A DNA stretch of 37,837 nt. Source: an uncultured Pelagibacteraceae bacterium. GTDB lineage: Bacteria; Pseudomonadota; Alphaproteobacteria; Pelagibacterales; Pelagibacteraceae. Shown piece by piece: positions 14,980 through 26,469 of this stretch (its first letter is position 1; every line of letters starts with the position of its first letter). The position numbers were made by a program, and so were the translations under genes. Where the stretch lies: assembly GCA_902633515.1 (NCBI GenBank), contig CACPGB010000004.1, positions 1 through 37,837 on the forward strand. Direction: 5' to 3'. The notes under the pieces are model-generated. The model ran no database searches and was not told the DNA's origin. It saw only the letters and a list, made by a program, of their open reading frames with translations.

Positions 14980-15025
14980 TAACACTTGATAAAAATACTA
15001 TTTTGCAATAAAAAAACTGAGATTT

Positions 15026-15100
15026 GGTCCCTTCGTCTATCGGTTAGGACACGTGGTTTTCATCCTCGAAAGAGGGGTTCGATTCCCCTAGGGACCGCCA
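15026..15100 (+). tRNA. tRNA-Glu (anticodon UUC)
   Basis: A full cloverleaf can be drawn. The acceptor stem is GGTCCCT (15026-15032) with AGGGACC (15090-15096), followed by discriminator G and an encoded CCA (15098-15100). The anticodon loop TTTTCAT gives anticodon TTC, and the T arm is GGGGTTCGATTCCCC. The anticodon stem has a U-U mismatch in its middle pair. Only five bases (taatt) separate the CCA end from the next ATG. Confidence 0.96.
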
Positions 15101-15105
15101 TAATT

Positions 15106-15354
15106 ATGATATTTTATGTTTATATGCTCAAAAGCATAAATAAGAGAACAACAAAAACATACGTAGGATATACTAATAACCTTGATTTGAGACTTAAAAA
15201 ACATAATTCAGGATTTGGAGCAAAATCAACACGTGGTCGAAAATGGAAAATAATCTATAAGAAAAAATTTTATGATAAAAGTTTAGCTATGTCATTTGAG
15301 TATAAATTAAAAAAAGATAAGATTGAGAGAAAACGACTATTAAGCATAAGTTAA
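15106..15354 (+). CDS. GIY-YIG domain protein (UPF0213-like)
   Basis: An 82-residue single-domain GIY-YIG protein. FYVYML and TYVGYT supply the two halves of the name motif in variant form (YVY and YVG), the catalytic Arg is in NLDLRLKKHNSG, GAKSTRGRKW follows, and the catalytic Glu is in SFEYKLKK. Proteins of this kind are uncharacterised but have the fold of Holliday-junction and repair nucleases. I start it at ATG 15106; a longer frame from upstream would read through the tRNA and is not real. It begins 5 bases after the tRNA-Glu CCA, with no ribosome binding site. Confidence 0.82.
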   Translation: MIFYVYMLKSINKRTTKTYVGYTNNLDLRLKKHNSGFGAKSTRGRKWKIIYKKKFYDKSLAMSFEYKLKKDKIERKRLLSIS

Positions 15355-15355
15355 A

Positions 15356-17464
15356 ATGAAAATAGCTTCAATACTTCCTTATAAAGAAAATTATACTAAA
15401 CATGGTGCTGGAGCTGTCTCCTTATGGATTAGTGAATTTTTGAGAGATTCCAAGTATAAAAAAGATACTTTTATTTTTGGAAATACACTTAAAAAAAAAT
15501 TTTTAACTAAAAACTACATTAATATTAATATAGAAAATATAAATTCTAAACTACACAGCACTACAAAGAAGTACTCAGAAAAAATTATACGAACAATTAA
15601 AGATTTTGAGTTTGATATAATTGAATTACATAATAGACCGATTATGGTAAAAAGCTTTTTTCAAAGGACTAATTCGAAAATAATTTTATACTTTCATAAT
15701 GACCCAACAACAATGAAAGGAGCTAAAAGTATCGAAGATCGTTTATACTTATTAAAAAATGTAGATAAAATAATCTTTATATCTTCATGGGTTAAAAAAA
15801 AATTTTTTAAAGGTCTGCCAATTTTGTCAGATAATAAAACAAGTATAATATATCATAGCATAGACCCTTTTAAAAAAAAACCTAAGAAAAAAAAACAAAT
15901 TATTTTTGTTGGTAAGCTCAATGAATCTAAAGGATATGATTTGTATTGTAAATCAATGTTTAAGATTTTGAATTTAAATAAAAAATGGCAAGCATTTTCA
16001 ATTGGTGAAGAAAAAAGATTTAAAGATTTTCCAACCCATGAAAGGCATAAAAATCTTGGACAGATAACTCATAAAAGAGTTCTGGACATATTAAGTAAAT
16101 CTGAGATAGCTATAATACCCTCTAGATGGGAAGAGCCATTTGGTCGAACAGCACTGGAGGCATCGTCACGTGGATGTGCAACAATTATTTCTAATTCTGG
16201 TGGCTTAATTGAGACAACAGATCATTCAATAGTTTTAAAAAAATTAGATGTTAAAAACATCGTATCTGAAACTTTAAAGTTAATTAGAAATAATAACTTA
16301 AGAAAAAATATACAATTTAAAAGTAGAAAATTTATTAAACATAAATTAAAAGAAAATTCAAAAAAAATTGATTTAATGAGACTTTCATTATTTCCATTTA
16401 CAAATATTAATATTAATAAGAAAAATAAATTAAGGATATTAAATATTTATAACGTAGCCCAAAAATTAAATCATAGGATTTATAACTTATCTCTTGGTAA
16501 AAAATTTACTAACGGATTTATTAGAAATGGTCACGATGTCATTGAAATAAGTGATCGGGACTATATGAAGCAAAACAAGTCTTTTGGATTTTTTAATTTA
16601 GAAAATAAATTTAATCAATATTTAAAAGAAACTTTTAAAAATTATAATCCAGATTTAATAATTTTTGGACATACTGAGAATATTAATAGCGAAATAATTG
16701 ATGATTTTAGATCTCTTAATAAAAATGTAATAATCTCTCAATGGAATGAAGATCCTTTAATGACTAATTTAACTGAAACTTCAAAAAATATAAATAAATT
16801 AAAAAATTTTATTCCATTAGTTGATCATTCTTTTATTACAACAAATCCAAGTATACTTAATATTTCTAAGAATAGTTTAAAGAATGTTCATTTCTTCATG
16901 ACACCAGTAGATAAAAATATTGAATGTTTTGATGTTTATAAACTCAATCCTACTAATGATGTTTTTTATGCTATGAGCCATGGTGTTAATCGAGGCACTT
17001 TAAAAGATAGAAAAACAGACAATAGAGCAAACTTCTTAAAAAAACTTATAAATAAAAGCAATGGTATTAAATTTGATTTTTATGGTTTTGGTAAACAAGA
17101 GCCAATTTGGGGTAACGATTTTTACAAGTCATTATTAAATTCCAAAATGGCCCTAAATTTGAGTAGAGGTAATCCAACTAAACACTATTCAAGCAATAGA
17201 ATTGCTTCACTTATGGGAAACGGATTGTTAGTTTTCATAGATAAAAAGGTTCAAATGGACTATTTTTTTAACCCAAATGAAATCATTTCATATGATTCTA
17301 TAGATGATCTTGCAAGTAAAATTAAGTATTACAAGATGAATGATAAATTAAGAATAAAAATTGCAAAAAAAGGTAAAGAAAAATACTTTAAATTATTCAA
17401 TGAAACAAAGGTTTGTAAATATATAATTGATAAATCTTTAGGAAAAAAAGCATCTTTAATTTAA
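15356..17464 (+). CDS. Two-domain glycosyltransferase (GT4-like + second GT-B domain)
   Basis: A 702-residue cytoplasmic protein joining two glycosyltransferase modules, probably for lipopolysaccharide or exopolysaccharide assembly. Residues 1-345 are GT4-like: GAGAVSLWISEFLRD near the N-terminus, IIFVGKLNESKGYD at 182-195, and the E-x7-E nucleotide-sugar motif EEPFGRTALEASSRG at 259-273. Residues 355-700 are a second GT-B unit of the spore-coat/DUF3880 kind, with LSRGNPTKHYSSNRIASLMGNGLL in place of the usual donor site. The acceptor and sugar cannot be inferred. It starts one base after the GIY-YIG stop and ends 4 bases from the convergent recombinase gene. Confidence 0.82.
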   Translation: MKIASILPYKENYTKHGAGAVSLWISEFLRDSKYKKDTFIFGNTLKKKFLTKNYININIENINSKLHSTTKKYSEKIIRTIKDFEFDIIELHNRPIMVKSFFQRTNSKIILYFHNDPTTMKGAKSIEDRLYLLKNVDKIIFISSWVKKKFFKGLPILSDNKTSIIYHSIDPFKKKPKKKKQIIFVGKLNESKGYDLYCKSMFKILNLNKKWQAFSIGEEKRFKDFPTHERHKNLGQITHKRVLDILSKSEIAIIPSRWEEPFGRTALEASSRGCATIISNSGGLIETTDHSIVLKKLDVKNIVSETLKLIRNNNLRKNIQFKSRKFIKHKLKENSKKIDLMRLSLFPFTNININKKNKLRILNIYNVAQKLNHRIYNLSLGKKFTNGFIRNGHDVIEISDRDYMKQNKSFGFFNLENKFNQYLKETFKNYNPDLIIFGHTENINSEIIDDFRSLNKNVIISQWNEDPLMTNLTETSKNINKLKNFIPLVDHSFITTNPSILNISKNSLKNVHFFMTPVDKNIECFDVYKLNPTNDVFYAMSHGVNRGTLKDRKTDNRANFLKKLINKSNGIKFDFYGFGKQEPIWGNDFYKSLLNSKMALNLSRGNPTKHYSSNRIASLMGNGLLVFIDKKVQMDYFFNPNEIISYDSIDDLASKIKYYKMNDKLRIKIAKKGKEKYFKLFNETKVCKYIIDKSLGKKASLI

Positions 17465-17468
17465 AAAT

Positions 17469-18422
17469 CTAAATTTTAATTTTATTAAGTGCGTTATTTT
17501 TAAAAATATTTGCTTCCTTTATATATCTTCTTACCATTTGTGTTGTTTTATGACCTGTCATAGCCATAATACTTCTTTCATCTGCACCAGATTCTGCCGC
17601 GGCCGTAGCAAAACCCGACCTTAGACTATGACCAGCAAAATTTTTATTTTCAATTCCTGATAGATTTAAATATTTTTTCATTATTAAAACTACAGATTGA
17701 TCAGTTAGTCTTTTGTTAGTTAAAGATGATCCTTTAGAAAATTTTCTAAAAATAGGTCCCGATTTAATTTGTGAAATTTCCAACCATTTTTTTATATTTG
17801 TAACTGGACAATAGGTTTCATTAGTGAAGTAGGGCAGTCCTTTTATCATACCCTCGCCAAATTGATCAGTTTTTGATCTTTTAATGGTAATTTTGAGTCC
17901 TTCAGGGACAAATTCCAAATCTTCATGATCAATTGATATAAGTTCTTTTCGTCTAAATCCGCCTCCAAAGCCAACTAATAAAATTGACTTGTCCCTGTAT
18001 TTCTTAATTTCCTGAATTTTTTGTTTATCTATTACATTAATTATTAATTTTAAATGATTGATTAATAATGGTTTTTTACCTTTTTGAATGCTCCCTTTTA
18101 CTCTTCTTATACCCATTAAATTCTCGACAATTATAGGATGTTTTGTATCTAAATAATGCCCTTTAAGCTTATGAACCATACTTATTGACACCAGTCTTCT
18201 TCTCAGAGTACTGATTTTTGAATTTTTCGAAAGATGAGTTAAATATAAAGAAACTACTTTAGGATCAGATGGTAGTGAATTTAACCCATGTTTAAAACAA
18301 AAAGCGGCAAAATCTCTAAAATCTGATTTATAAGCTCTTAAAGTATTATTAGATTTAGAATTTTTTAAATTATTTAAAGTTGCCTCATGCAGCGATTTTA
18401 GATCTGTTGTTAAATTATTCAT
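17469..18422 (-). CDS. Tyrosine recombinase / site-specific integrase
   Basis: Cuts and rejoins DNA at specific sites. The N-terminal SAM-like core-binding domain (about 10-105) contains NTLRAYKSDFRDFAAFC, and the catalytic domain (118-310) has all active residues: Arg157 (GFRRKEL), Lys184 (RSKTDQ), His265 and Arg268 (GHSLRSGF), His291 (GHKT) and nucleophile Tyr300 (VRRYI). With 317 residues it is intact. It resembles the widespread alphaproteobacterial/plasmid integrase group more than XerC or XerD. A perfect 14-bp inverted repeat lies 4 bases before its ATG. No flanking direct repeats or cargo cassette are visible, so a resident recombinase is as likely as a mobile element. Confidence 0.93.
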   Translation of the reverse strand: MNNLTTDLKSLHEATLNNLKNSKSNNTLRAYKSDFRDFAAFCFKHGLNSLPSDPKVVSLYLTHLSKNSKISTLRRRLVSISMVHKLKGHYLDTKHPIIVENLMGIRRVKGSIQKGKKPLLINHLKLIINVIDKQKIQEIKKYRDKSILLVGFGGGFRRKELISIDHEDLEFVPEGLKITIKRSKTDQFGEGMIKGLPYFTNETYCPVTNIKKWLEISQIKSGPIFRKFSKGSSLTNKRLTDQSVVLIMKKYLNLSGIENKNFAGHSLRSGFATAAAESGADERSIMAMTGHKTTQMVRRYIKEANIFKNNALNKIKI

Positions 18423-18425
18423 AAC

Positions 18426-18460
18426 ATTACTATTGATAACAATTAATTATCAATAGTAAT
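18426..18460. repeat. Perfect inverted repeat at recombinase start (candidate recombination core site or operator)
   Basis: ATTACTATTGATAA (18426-18439) and TTATCAATAGTAAT (18447-18460) are exact reverse complements around the 7-base spacer CAATTAA. The geometry (two 14-bp arms, 7-bp centre) is that of tyrosine-recombinase core sites such as loxP, FRT or dif. An 8-base copy of the arm core, TCAATAGT, recurs at 18481-18488, exactly 31 bases after the same core in the right arm (18450-18457). It could equally be an autoregulatory operator, as it overlaps the expected promoter/leader of the recombinase gene. Confidence 0.6.
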
Positions 18461-18504
18461 ATATTAAGTGATTTTTAATGTCAATAGTTTAAATATAAAA
18501 TAAT

Positions 18505-18681
18505 ATGGGTTCAGTAGATGGAGAAATTCCAGCAGTATGGTTCCTAATCACATCTGTTGGATTTATTATTTTGAGTTCAATTCAATATAAGAATCACGGA
18601 AAAAGCATTGAAACTATCTTTTTATCTATAATGGCTATTTTGTTTTTGATAAGTTATTTTATATTAGTTTTTAAATCTTAA
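18505..18681 (+). CDS. Small predicted two-helix membrane protein
   Basis: A 58-residue frame from ATG 18505 to TAA 18681, beginning MGSVDGEIPAVWFLI. Two hydrophobic stretches are visible: about residues 11-26 (VWFLITSVGFIILSSI) and 39-56 (FLSIMAILFLISYFILVF), separated by a short polar loop YKNHGKSIET. This is the pattern of a hairpin inner-membrane protein with no recognisable family. No Shine-Dalgarno is seen. It diverges from the recombinase, with 82 bases between starts that hold the inverted repeat. It is short, so a chance frame is possible, but the amphipathic layout argues for coding. Confidence 0.5.
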   Translation: MGSVDGEIPAVWFLITSVGFIILSSIQYKNHGKSIETIFLSIMAILFLISYFILVFKS

Positions 18682-18778
18682 ATTATCCCCAATATTCACA
18701 ACTAATTTTAAAATTTTTAAGAATCAATTATAAAGTGATACATGATTTCTTTTTAATTTGTTATTATGCACTTAATTA

Positions 18779-18958
18779 AGGGGCAACTCTTAACTGGCCG
18801 GTTGGAGAAAAGCCGAGAGGTACAATTCCAAAGGGCAGAAAGCTCTGCAAAGCATCGCTGAACATGCAGAGTGGTGGGCATGGCGGTAGCGCATCAACGA
18901 CGTGCCAAAACAACTGTTCTTTGCACCTTTAAAAAGTGCAAGGAAACAGGTGTTTTTT
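18779..18958 (+). ncRNA. GC-rich structured RNA of unknown class (sRNA or ogt leader)
   Basis: Bases 18781-18910 are about 54% G+C by hand count, standing out sharply from the AT-rich surroundings; in SAR11-type genomes that is a mark of structured RNA. Stems that can be drawn include GCAGA/TCTGC (18835-18847) competing with CTCTGC/GCAGAG (18843-18848 with 18876-18881), GCAT/ATGC within it, and GGCA/TGCC closing 18888-18906. A strong terminator ends it. A possible -10 (TATTAT, 18762-18767) precedes it. The signatures of RNase P RNA, SRP RNA, tmRNA and the riboswitches I know are not present. No protein frame of note covers it. Confidence 0.65.
18914..18958 (+). terminator. Intrinsic terminator at end of structured RNA
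   Basis: CTGTT (18914-18918) followed by CTTTGCAC pairs with GTGCAAGG, a one-base bulge and AACAG (18945-18949), giving about 13 base pairs around an A/T-rich loop. A run of six T follows at 18953-18958. It is the clearest Rho-independent terminator in the window. The ogt start codon is only 7 bases further on, so any ogt transcript from upstream must read through it. Confidence 0.8.
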
Positions 18959-18965
18959 AAAAAAA

Positions 18966-19241
18966 ATGATTTTTAAAGGCACAAAATTCCAAATTAAAGT
19001 CTGGAAATATCTTAAAACTATACCAAAAGGCAAGGTAAAAACCTATAAACAAGTGGCTATTGGTATAAAAAGCCCTAAATCAGCTCGTGCTGTAGCTAAT
19101 GCTTGTGCTAAAAACCAATATGCTCCAAAAGTACCCTGTCATAGAGTGGTCAGATCTGATGGAGCTCTTGGAGGTTACTCTGGGAGAGGTGGAATTATGC
19201 AAAAGCTCAAATTACTTAGGTCTGAAAAAGTAGTAATTTAG
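18966..19241 (+). CDS. ogt: Methylated-DNA-[protein]-cysteine S-methyltransferase, catalytic domain only
   Basis: Repairs O6-alkylguanine by moving the alkyl group to its own cysteine. The 91 residues are only the C-terminal domain of Ogt/MGMT: helix-turn-helix with Arg finger in SPKSARAVANACAKN, the active-site motif PCHRVV with Cys58, and GALGGYSGR. The N-terminal domain of classical Ogt is absent, as in short family members; retention of Cys separates it from alkyltransferase-like proteins, which have Trp there. I start it at ATG 18966; a GTG at 18936 in the same frame lies within the terminator stem. No ribosome binding site precedes it, only an A-run. Confidence 0.88.
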   Translation: MIFKGTKFQIKVWKYLKTIPKGKVKTYKQVAIGIKSPKSARAVANACAKNQYAPKVPCHRVVRSDGALGGYSGRGGIMQKLKLLRSEKVVI

Positions 19242-25062: not shown

Positions 25063-25081
25063 ATTTTCATATTAAATCGGT

Positions 25082-25137
25082 AGGCATTTGAACTATATTG
25101 TGCGCCTTGTACTTATCAAAAGCACTAAAAAAGGAGC
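25082..25137 (+). promoter_or_regulatory. SAM-V riboswitch controlling metY translation
   Basis: It closely matches the SAM-V class known from SAR11 and other marine bacteria: stem AGGC (25082-25085) with GCCT (25104-25107), conserved ATTTGAAC and TATATTGTGC in the loop, and GCACTAAAAAAGGAG (25122-25136) as the 3' part. GTGC (25100-25103) pairs with GCAC (25122-25125) in the pseudoknot. The 3' strand contains the metY Shine-Dalgarno AAGGAG, 4-5 bases before the ATG, so SAM binding should hide it and stop translation. Confidence 0.9.
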
Positions 25138-25140
25138 AAA

Positions 25141-26469
25141 ATGAAAAAAAAAAGAAATAATCCAGAAACCATTGGTTTACATGGAGGTGAGTATAGAAAA
25201 GATCCCGCCACCAATGCTGTTACAGTTCCAATATACAGAACAACTGCTTATCAGTTTGATAATACAGAACATGCAGCAAAACTTTTCAAGCTCGAAGAAT
25301 TTGGGAATATTTATACAAGAATAATGAATCCAACCAATGATGTTTTAGAAAAAAGATTAGCAGAATTAGAAAGTGGTTTAGCTTGTTTAACTGTTTCTTC
25401 TGGTCAGACTGCTTCAACATTTGCCGTGTTAAATGTAGCACAAGCAGGTGATAATATAGTTAGTTCAACTGATTTATATGGAGGAACTGTGTCTCTGTTC
25501 ACAAACACTCTAAGCAAATTAGGTATTGAAATTCGTTACGCAGACCCATTAGATCCTAAAAATTTTGAAAAACTTGTCGACGATAAAACAAGAGCTTTTT
25601 ACGGAGAAACACTTCCAAATCCTTATTTGAGAGTTTTTCCTATAAAGGAAGTTTCAGATATAGGAAAAAAATATAGTATCCCTCTAATTATGGATAATAC
25701 TGCTGCACCAGTTATTTGCAGACCGATTGAACACGGTGCAGCTGTTACAATCCACTCTTTAACTAAGTATATAGGAGGTCATGGTACTGCTGTTGCAGGT
25801 AGTATAGTAGATGGTGGTAATTTTGACTGGACTGCAGATCCTAAAAGACAACCATTATTTAATGAACCAGATCCTAGTTATGGTAATGTGATATGGGGTA
25901 AAGCAGTTCCAGAATTAACAGGAGCAAATATACCATTTGCTATTAGAGCTAGAGTTTGTTTATTGAGAGACTTAGGTTCGTCATTAGCACCTGACAATGC
26001 CTTTTCTATTATACAAGGGTTAGAAACTTGTGCTTTAAGAATGAAACAACATTGTCAAAATGCAAATAAAGTTGTCGAATTTTTATCTAAACACAAAGAA
26101 GTTTCAAAAGTAATATACTCAACTAAGCATGAAAAAAAGATATCAGATAGGGCAAAAAAATACCTCACAGGTGGAAATGGTGCAATGGTTGGAATTGAAC
26201 TCAAAGGTGGTATTGAAGCTGGTAAAAGATTTATTGAGTCTTTAAAGATGTTCTATCATGTTGCTAATATTGGTGATGCAAGAAGTTTAGCTACTCACCC
26301 AGCTAGTACAACTCACAGTCAATTAAGTGAAAATCAACTTGCAGCATCAGGTGTTACTCAAGGTTATGTAAGATTATGTATAGGTATTGAACACATAGAT
26401 GATATAATTTCGGATCTAAATCAGGCTTTAAATAGATCTTCTAGGGGTAATTTAAAAGCAGTAAGTTAA
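25141..26469 (+). CDS. metY: O-acetylhomoserine sulfhydrylase
   Basis: PLP enzyme that makes homocysteine from O-acetylhomoserine and sulfide (or methionine from methanethiol). The 442 residues have the Cys/Met-metabolism fold; PLP Lys209 lies in HSLTKYIGGHGTAVAG, with SSGQTAS, YGGTVSLF, MDNTAAP and SLATHPASTTHSQL as further landmarks. The +20 to 40 length over cystathionine synthases fits MetY. Control is by the two SAM riboswitches just upstream. Its stop codon interlocks with the convergent ctaA stop in a shared TTAA. Confidence 0.95.
   Translation: MKKKRNNPETIGLHGGEYRKDPATNAVTVPIYRTTAYQFDNTEHAAKLFKLEEFGNIYTRIMNPTNDVLEKRLAELESGLACLTVSSGQTASTFAVLNVAQAGDNIVSSTDLYGGTVSLFTNTLSKLGIEIRYADPLDPKNFEKLVDDKTRAFYGETLPNPYLRVFPIKEVSDIGKKYSIPLIMDNTAAPVICRPIEHGAAVTIHSLTKYIGGHGTAVAGSIVDGGNFDWTADPKRQPLFNEPDPSYGNVIWGKAVPELTGANIPFAIRARVCLLRDLGSSLAPDNAFSIIQGLETCALRMKQHCQNANKVVEFLSKHKEVSKVIYSTKHEKKISDRAKKYLTGGNGAMVGIELKGGIEAGKRFIESLKMFYHVANIGDARSLATHPASTTHSQLSENQLAASGVTQGYVRLCIGIEHIDDIISDLNQALNRSSRGNLKAVS

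Follow-up and report, generated by a model that had tools for sequence, protein, structure and literature searches.

Among the systems described so far, the closest parallel to the locus reported here is XerL of the Legionellales, likewise a lone tyrosine recombinase from a group formerly believed to be without a dif/Xer system, with a site near the replication terminus and a mobile element carrying a dif mimic (Nicholson et al. 2022, PMC9765430). One recombinase and a palindromic, AT-rich site that lies near the terminus and adjoins the gene are also known as difSL/XerS in streptococci and lactococci and as difH/XerH in Epsilonproteobacteria (PMC5357621, PMC2731167). Two proteins and a 6-bp centre characterise XerCD/dif; Cre/loxP, borne by phages or plasmids, needs a single protein for its pair of inverted arms, which in loxP are 13 bp long and separated by an 8-bp spacer. 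For SAR11, the most abundant bacteria of the ocean, no paper naming a Xer system was found in the literature searched; Carnoy and Roten (2009) reported P. ubique to be without a dif/Xer system, and Pelagibacter has served as an example of free-living bacteria in which genome streamlining removed it (PMC2731167).

The window, i.e. the whole stretch of 37,837 nucleotides analysed here, derives from a draft genome of the Pelagibacteraceae (SAR11), and the evidence presented below indicates a distinct system in SAR11 instead of none. This system satisfies those criteria of the single-recombinase dif/Xer class, comprising XerS, XerH and XerL, that sequence analysis can test; catalysis, a dimer-resolution phenotype and control by FtsK are inferred. 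Gene and site are more closely linked than in XerL (3 bp apart, with the site overlapping the predicted promoter), and SAR11 has two specificities. XerL is also longer (catalytic Y387), and no sequence comparison between it and the SAR11 recombinase was made. XerS (356 aa) and XerH (354-362 aa) differ in length from the SAR11 proteins (303-317 aa), and the arm sequences differ as well. Fold, catalytic residues, terminus position and FtsK-gamma are common to XerCD/dif and SAR11, but the latter has one protein, as in Cre/loxP, and a 7-bp centre.

The recombinase gene and the adjoining inverted repeat

The features of the locus are listed in Table 1. In the recombinase, R157/R158, K184, H265, R268, H291 and Y300 were all present and were invariant across 134 orthologues, and no other PF00589 protein was found in the draft genome. 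Scores against the XerC, XerD and XerS models (71.3 of 329.6, 64.9 of 335.15 and 51.2 of 267 bits, respectively) were far under the curated cut-offs. A PDB search returned Cre among the best matches and XerH as a distant one (33.6 bits, below XerD and Cre), and a PHROG integrase was also matched. By sequence, the protein is not XerS, XerH, XerC or XerD; XerL was outside this comparison.

The arms of the repeat, ATTACTATTGATAA and TTATCAATAGTAAT, are exact reverse complements of 14 bp each and enclose the asymmetric centre CAATTAA. With up to three mismatches allowed, the site gave one match in the window, none in 100 shuffles and a single place in the entire 667-kb draft genome. The preliminary description, made from sequence alone, had claimed such a repeat with a 7-bp centre, an intact Arg-Lys-His-Arg-His-Tyr recombinase and an 8-bp arm core recurring 31 bp downstream, all of which held; its 4-bp gap between repeat and gene held only in part, the gap to the ATG being 3 bp. 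The recurrence, TCAATAGT, differs in many relatives although these retain TTGACA. Its overlap with the -35 box and its lack of conservation led to its rejection as an accessory site, and it is read as part of the promoter.

Table 1. Positions of the recombinase gene, the proposed site and neighbouring features in the window
Feature	Positions	Strand	Remarks
Switch in gene orientation (+ genes left, - genes right), read as the replication terminus	15616-19036		Change point 17177; 2-log-unit range given
Tyrosine recombinase (single; 317 aa), proposed as the SAR11 Xer	17469-18422	-	PF00589 and PF02899
Proposed dif-like recombination site, type A, 35 bp (14+7+14)	18426-18460		Exact inverted repeat, single genome copy, position kept in relatives
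Gene-side arm	18426-18439		Hardly varies in type A; reads ATTACTATTGATAA on + and TTATCAATAGTAAT on the gene strand
Asymmetric 7-bp centre	18440-18446		TTAATTG on the gene strand; TTAATTG in 97/106 type A, TTAATGG in 25/27 type B
Promoter-side arm	18447-18460		Two positions vary among relatives: AT, AC, TT, GT
Predicted -10 hexamer TATTAC	18456-18461	-	17 bp from the -35 box; overlaps the outer end of the promoter-side arm; consensus-only prediction
Predicted -35 box TTGACA of the recombinase gene	18479-18484	-	TTGACA/TTGACT kept in relatives; consensus-only prediction
8-bp recurrence TCAATAGT	18481-18488		31 bp off; overlaps the -35 box (minus strand 18484-18479)
IMES-2 structured RNA	18769-18908	+	140.6 bits
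GIY-YIG ORF	14986-15354	+	Overlaps tRNA-Glu
tRNA-Glu	15026-15100		
SAM-V riboswitch	25073-25139	+	Ends 2 bp before ORF 25141-26469

Conservation among the Pelagibacteraceae

The comparison set comprised 297 Pelagibacteraceae genomes, 127 of them near-complete. The recombinase was present in 230/297 genomes and in 111/127 near-complete ones, and the site core GATAATTWATKGTTATC occurred exactly once in 223/297 and 111/127, respectively; every listed genome with a match carried one copy. A 26-base site pattern, searched with up to three mismatches, was detected in 155 genomes (once in each genome listed), and the reversed control yielded 0. All upstream regions of the closest relatives showed the site at the same place, and in 134 of 134 distinct recombinase loci read directly it was located at the gene start.

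Sixteen of the 127 near-complete genomes had neither site nor gene. All of these are drafts, in which gaps are possible but unproven. Ten near-complete genomes of the window's genus that were without the recombinase were missing the core as well. The near-complete drafts without recombinase and site include G172, G176, G198, G216, G222, G226, G256, G260, G284 and G288 of the same genus and G012, G019 and G028 of the same family; assembly gap, loss and replacement by another system are indistinguishable in such drafts.

Two site types and matching recombinase clades

Two SPECIFICITIES were distinguished, with 106 of the 134 distinct proteins belonging to type A, 27 to type B and one to a near-B variant. 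The arms of the two specificities end in TATTGATAA or TTCCGATAA, and both arms switch together between the types. The right arm AATAGTAAT was found in 97/106 type A loci, and the centre of type A was 97-100% conserved per column, with variable DNA from the -35 box to the site. The type B site, TTCCGATAA-TTAATGG-TTATCGGAA, occupies the same position, and its recombinases are about 52-67% identical to that of the window. Over both types the consensus of the centre, TTAATKG, is nearly fixed. SloxP arms, which contain TCCGATA/TATCGGA, resemble those of type B.

In the recombinase tree type A formed one group (support 93/92), and the type labels required 2 changes, against a mean of 9.3 after shuffling. 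Type A proteins have Q242 in place of the K of type B proteins, together with a 12-residue insertion ahead of the DNA-recognition helix (the helix matched to TRQT of XerD in the alignment). Both the insertion and type A arms were present in a distant member (L154, 58% identity). Since both types occur within the window's genus between the same flanking genes (a small ORF, ogt and an EamA transporter), recombinase and site appear to have been exchanged as one unit at the same locus.

Position relative to the replication terminus

In 11/11 single-contig complete genomes the site was located 0.42-0.49 genome lengths from dnaA, in dnaA's direction. Local fits of gene orientation gave change points at 997.0, 918.2 and 1014.6 kb in three distant complete genomes (G026, G035 and the type B genome G040) and at 17.2 kb in the window; the sites were at 998.8, 920.0, 1013.4 and 18.4 kb, i.e. 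all less than 2 kb from the orientation switch. For G026 (1,308,759 bp), fitting the whole circle placed one switch at 290 kb and the other at 1,000 kb, the latter with a 2-log-unit range of 995-1002.5 kb; the site is at 998.84 kb. By gene orientation and distance from dnaA, the site lies at the replication terminus. The weakest part of this argument is the GC3 skew of G026, which breaks best at 870 kb, not 999 kb, and is disturbed by a variable region near 900 kb.

The third-position GC skew of G026 is inverted at about 890-920 kb, 80-110 kb from the site, in what is possibly a foreign hypervariable region. Among KOPS-like octamers, GGGNAGGG was found 13 times on the leading and 2 times on the lagging strand, numbers that are too small and confounded with gene direction. 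An IMES-2 structured RNA, belonging to an RNA family of unknown function, lies beside the terminus site in the window; it adjoins the recombinase in most type A loci and in some type B loci.

Other tyrosine recombinases and FtsK

The recombinase was the only tyrosine recombinase present in all complete SAR11 genomes; the few others were sporadic and could be prophage integrases. Neither XerC nor XerD was found in the complete SAR11 genomes. The sister family of the same order has retained XerC and XerD: 6 of 7 genomes had two proteins scoring about 244-322 bits with the XerD model and one had a single protein scoring 324.5, whereas the SAR11 recombinase scored 65-82 bits. FtsK with a gamma domain was present in 12/12 genomes searched.

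Copies of the site in phages

The core was found in 29 IMG/VR contigs, none of which carried the recombinase, and a viral scan for the recombinase gave one weak partial match only. Type B arms at 7-bp spacing were present in at least 120 phage contigs, with 0 in the control at 9-bp spacing, and type A arms in 25; in many AT-rich contigs, sites of the two types were adjacent. A terminase was recognised in 111 AT-rich contigs, and 110 of these had the site 184-1169 bp upstream of terL. These terminases have relatives in HTVC106P, HTVC010P and other cultured pelagiphages. The centre TTAANNG was present in 62/95 AT-rich type B phage sites, like the host centres TTAATGG and TTAATTG. Several cultured pelagiphages also showed degenerate sites upstream of terL, but these are weaker evidence than the contigs, as single degenerate sites occur near the chance rate. 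Mimicry of the host -10 box by the phages was unsupported (14/43 left and 7/43 right flanks within one mismatch).

No prophage was detected at the host site among the 297 genomes; a terminase search found 5 genomes, in none of which the terminase was beside the site, and around the site of G022 the promoter side holds ordinary genes and the opposite side a glycosyltransferase. An HTVC010P-like terminase in a SAR11 contig (G123, C1:267517-268710) is about 180 kb from the recombinase locus and probably belongs to a prophage integrated elsewhere.

Twenty-seven GC-rich viral contigs without a related terminase (L367, L371, L373, L376, L382, L387 and others) carry TTCCGATAA-N7-TTATCGGAA as well, in many cases in the longer form ACTTCC...GGAAGT. 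Phages whose hosts are quite different seem to use the specificity of the type B arms.

Abundant pelagiphages have been described as encoding no known integration mechanism (PMC11094077). The situation resembles that of IMEX, dif-integrating phages and islands as in Vibrio cholerae, which likewise include phages without integrase and a dif-like site, often with one degenerate arm (PMC5357621). The criterion for IMEX, a phage site matching that of the host and no recombinase for it, was met; pelagiphages differ in being tailed dsDNA phages that often have two tandem sites of differing specificity, and their integration is inferred. HTVC010P-type phages without a lysogeny module are reported to integrate at nearly one SAR11 site, and a host tyrosine recombinase was reportedly suggested as perhaps responsible (Du et al. 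2021, doi 10.1099/mgen.0.000596). If so, the phage half of the present account would be partly known already and would be backed by direct recombination evidence.

Proposed function

The reading best supported by these data is that SAR11 chromosome dimers are likely resolved by a single-recombinase dif/Xer system, which is probably both autoregulated and exploited by pelagiphages. Strand exchange, control by FtsK, autoregulation and phage integration are all inferred. In the proposed mechanism, one tyrosine recombinase would bind both arms of the site, and late in division the two sites of a dimeric chromosome would be brought together at the terminus, FtsK probably assisting. Strand exchange over the 7-bp asymmetric centre would then restore monomers. 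Because the site overlaps the predicted promoter of the recombinase, binding is expected to repress the gene, so that one stretch of DNA probably serves as both operator and recombination site. For pelagiphages related to HTVC010P and HTVC106P, the sites upstream of the terminase would most simply be attP sites for integration by the host recombinase.

The preliminary description had proposed for the locus a possible resident single-recombinase site for inversion, dimer resolution or excision, in analogy to the dif site beside xerS in streptococci. This reading is supported, with dimer resolution favoured among its options, and the likeness to xerS holds as an analogy only, the SAR11 protein not being XerS by sequence. 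Resident inversion or excision failed, since there is one site per genome. Of the checks it had proposed, conservation beside orthologous recombinases and covariation of the arms with the recombinase subtype both held, and the position relative to the terminus held by gene orientation and distance from dnaA, the GC3 skew being less clear. A search for junctions yielded neither recombination junctions nor dimers nor phage-host junctions in the genomes and viral contigs searched; other replicons, the phages, were found to carry the site, which likewise favours dimer resolution.

A dif/Xer system of this kind would mark the SAR11 terminus precisely and provide two recombinase/site specificities as a natural pair. 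For abundant pelagiphages it opens a possible integration route, and copies of the site are carried by some of the commonest viruses of the ocean. A bolder reading, which can be offered only as a possibility, is that SAR11 swapped XerCD for a self-contained module in which the site overlaps the promoter and serves as operator. The module, with its two interchangeable specificities, would be swapped whole at the terminus; HTVC010P-like phages may have supplied the pressure and would have responded by carrying sites for both in tandem. As the site lies between promoter and gene, phage integration would cut the recombinase from its promoter and so stabilise the prophage.

Alternative explanations

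The alternative that survives best concerns the phage copies only and remains possible: the host recombinase might resolve phage concatemers or circular multimers, as plasmids use cer, without integration. The sites adjoin the terminase and no integrated copy was seen at the site in the 297 genomes, both of which are in its favour. A match to the host centre would, however, not be needed for multimer resolution, yet most AT-rich type B phage sites have one, and the composite sites of types A and B suit a choice of hosts.

It is unlikely that the repeat is an operator only, at which the recombinase or another dimeric regulator represses the promoter while the true recombination target lies elsewhere. 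The predicted -10 box and transcription start are in or beside the site, its two-fold symmetry suits a dimer, and the promoter overlap leaves such a role possible. Autoregulation, the main alternative of the preliminary description, is indeed probably also true, but alone it leaves unexplained the terminus position and the asymmetric invariant centre, neither of which an operator needs, and the copies in phages without the recombinase gene. Nor was a second conserved site found in the genomes.

A domesticated or degenerate phage integrase or invertase with an old attB or inversion site, having no role in dimer resolution, is very unlikely. The PHROG integrase match and the presence of the same site in phages could be taken to favour it. 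Against it, phages with the site have essentially no copy of the gene, the single site per genome rules out resident inversion or excision, and the gene is vertically present at the terminus throughout a family that lacks XerCD.

An RNA hairpin in the 5' leader controlling translation of the recombinase is all but excluded, for although a folding energy of -15.5 kcal/mol (z -6.3) was obtained for the leader in the window, common variants disrupt the stem (ATTACTAAC: -9.0 kcal/mol, z -2.9) whereas the gene-side arm stays fixed, phage copies are distant from any recombinase gene, and the loop is kept across diverged proteins. That a hairpin forms in the transcript is still possible, a case weakened by the same variants.

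Other features of the window

Apart from the recombinase locus, a SAM-V riboswitch was found directly ahead of an ORF (Table 1). The GIY-YIG domain of the ORF overlapping tRNA-Glu begins past the tRNA, so the true start of this ORF is probably further down.
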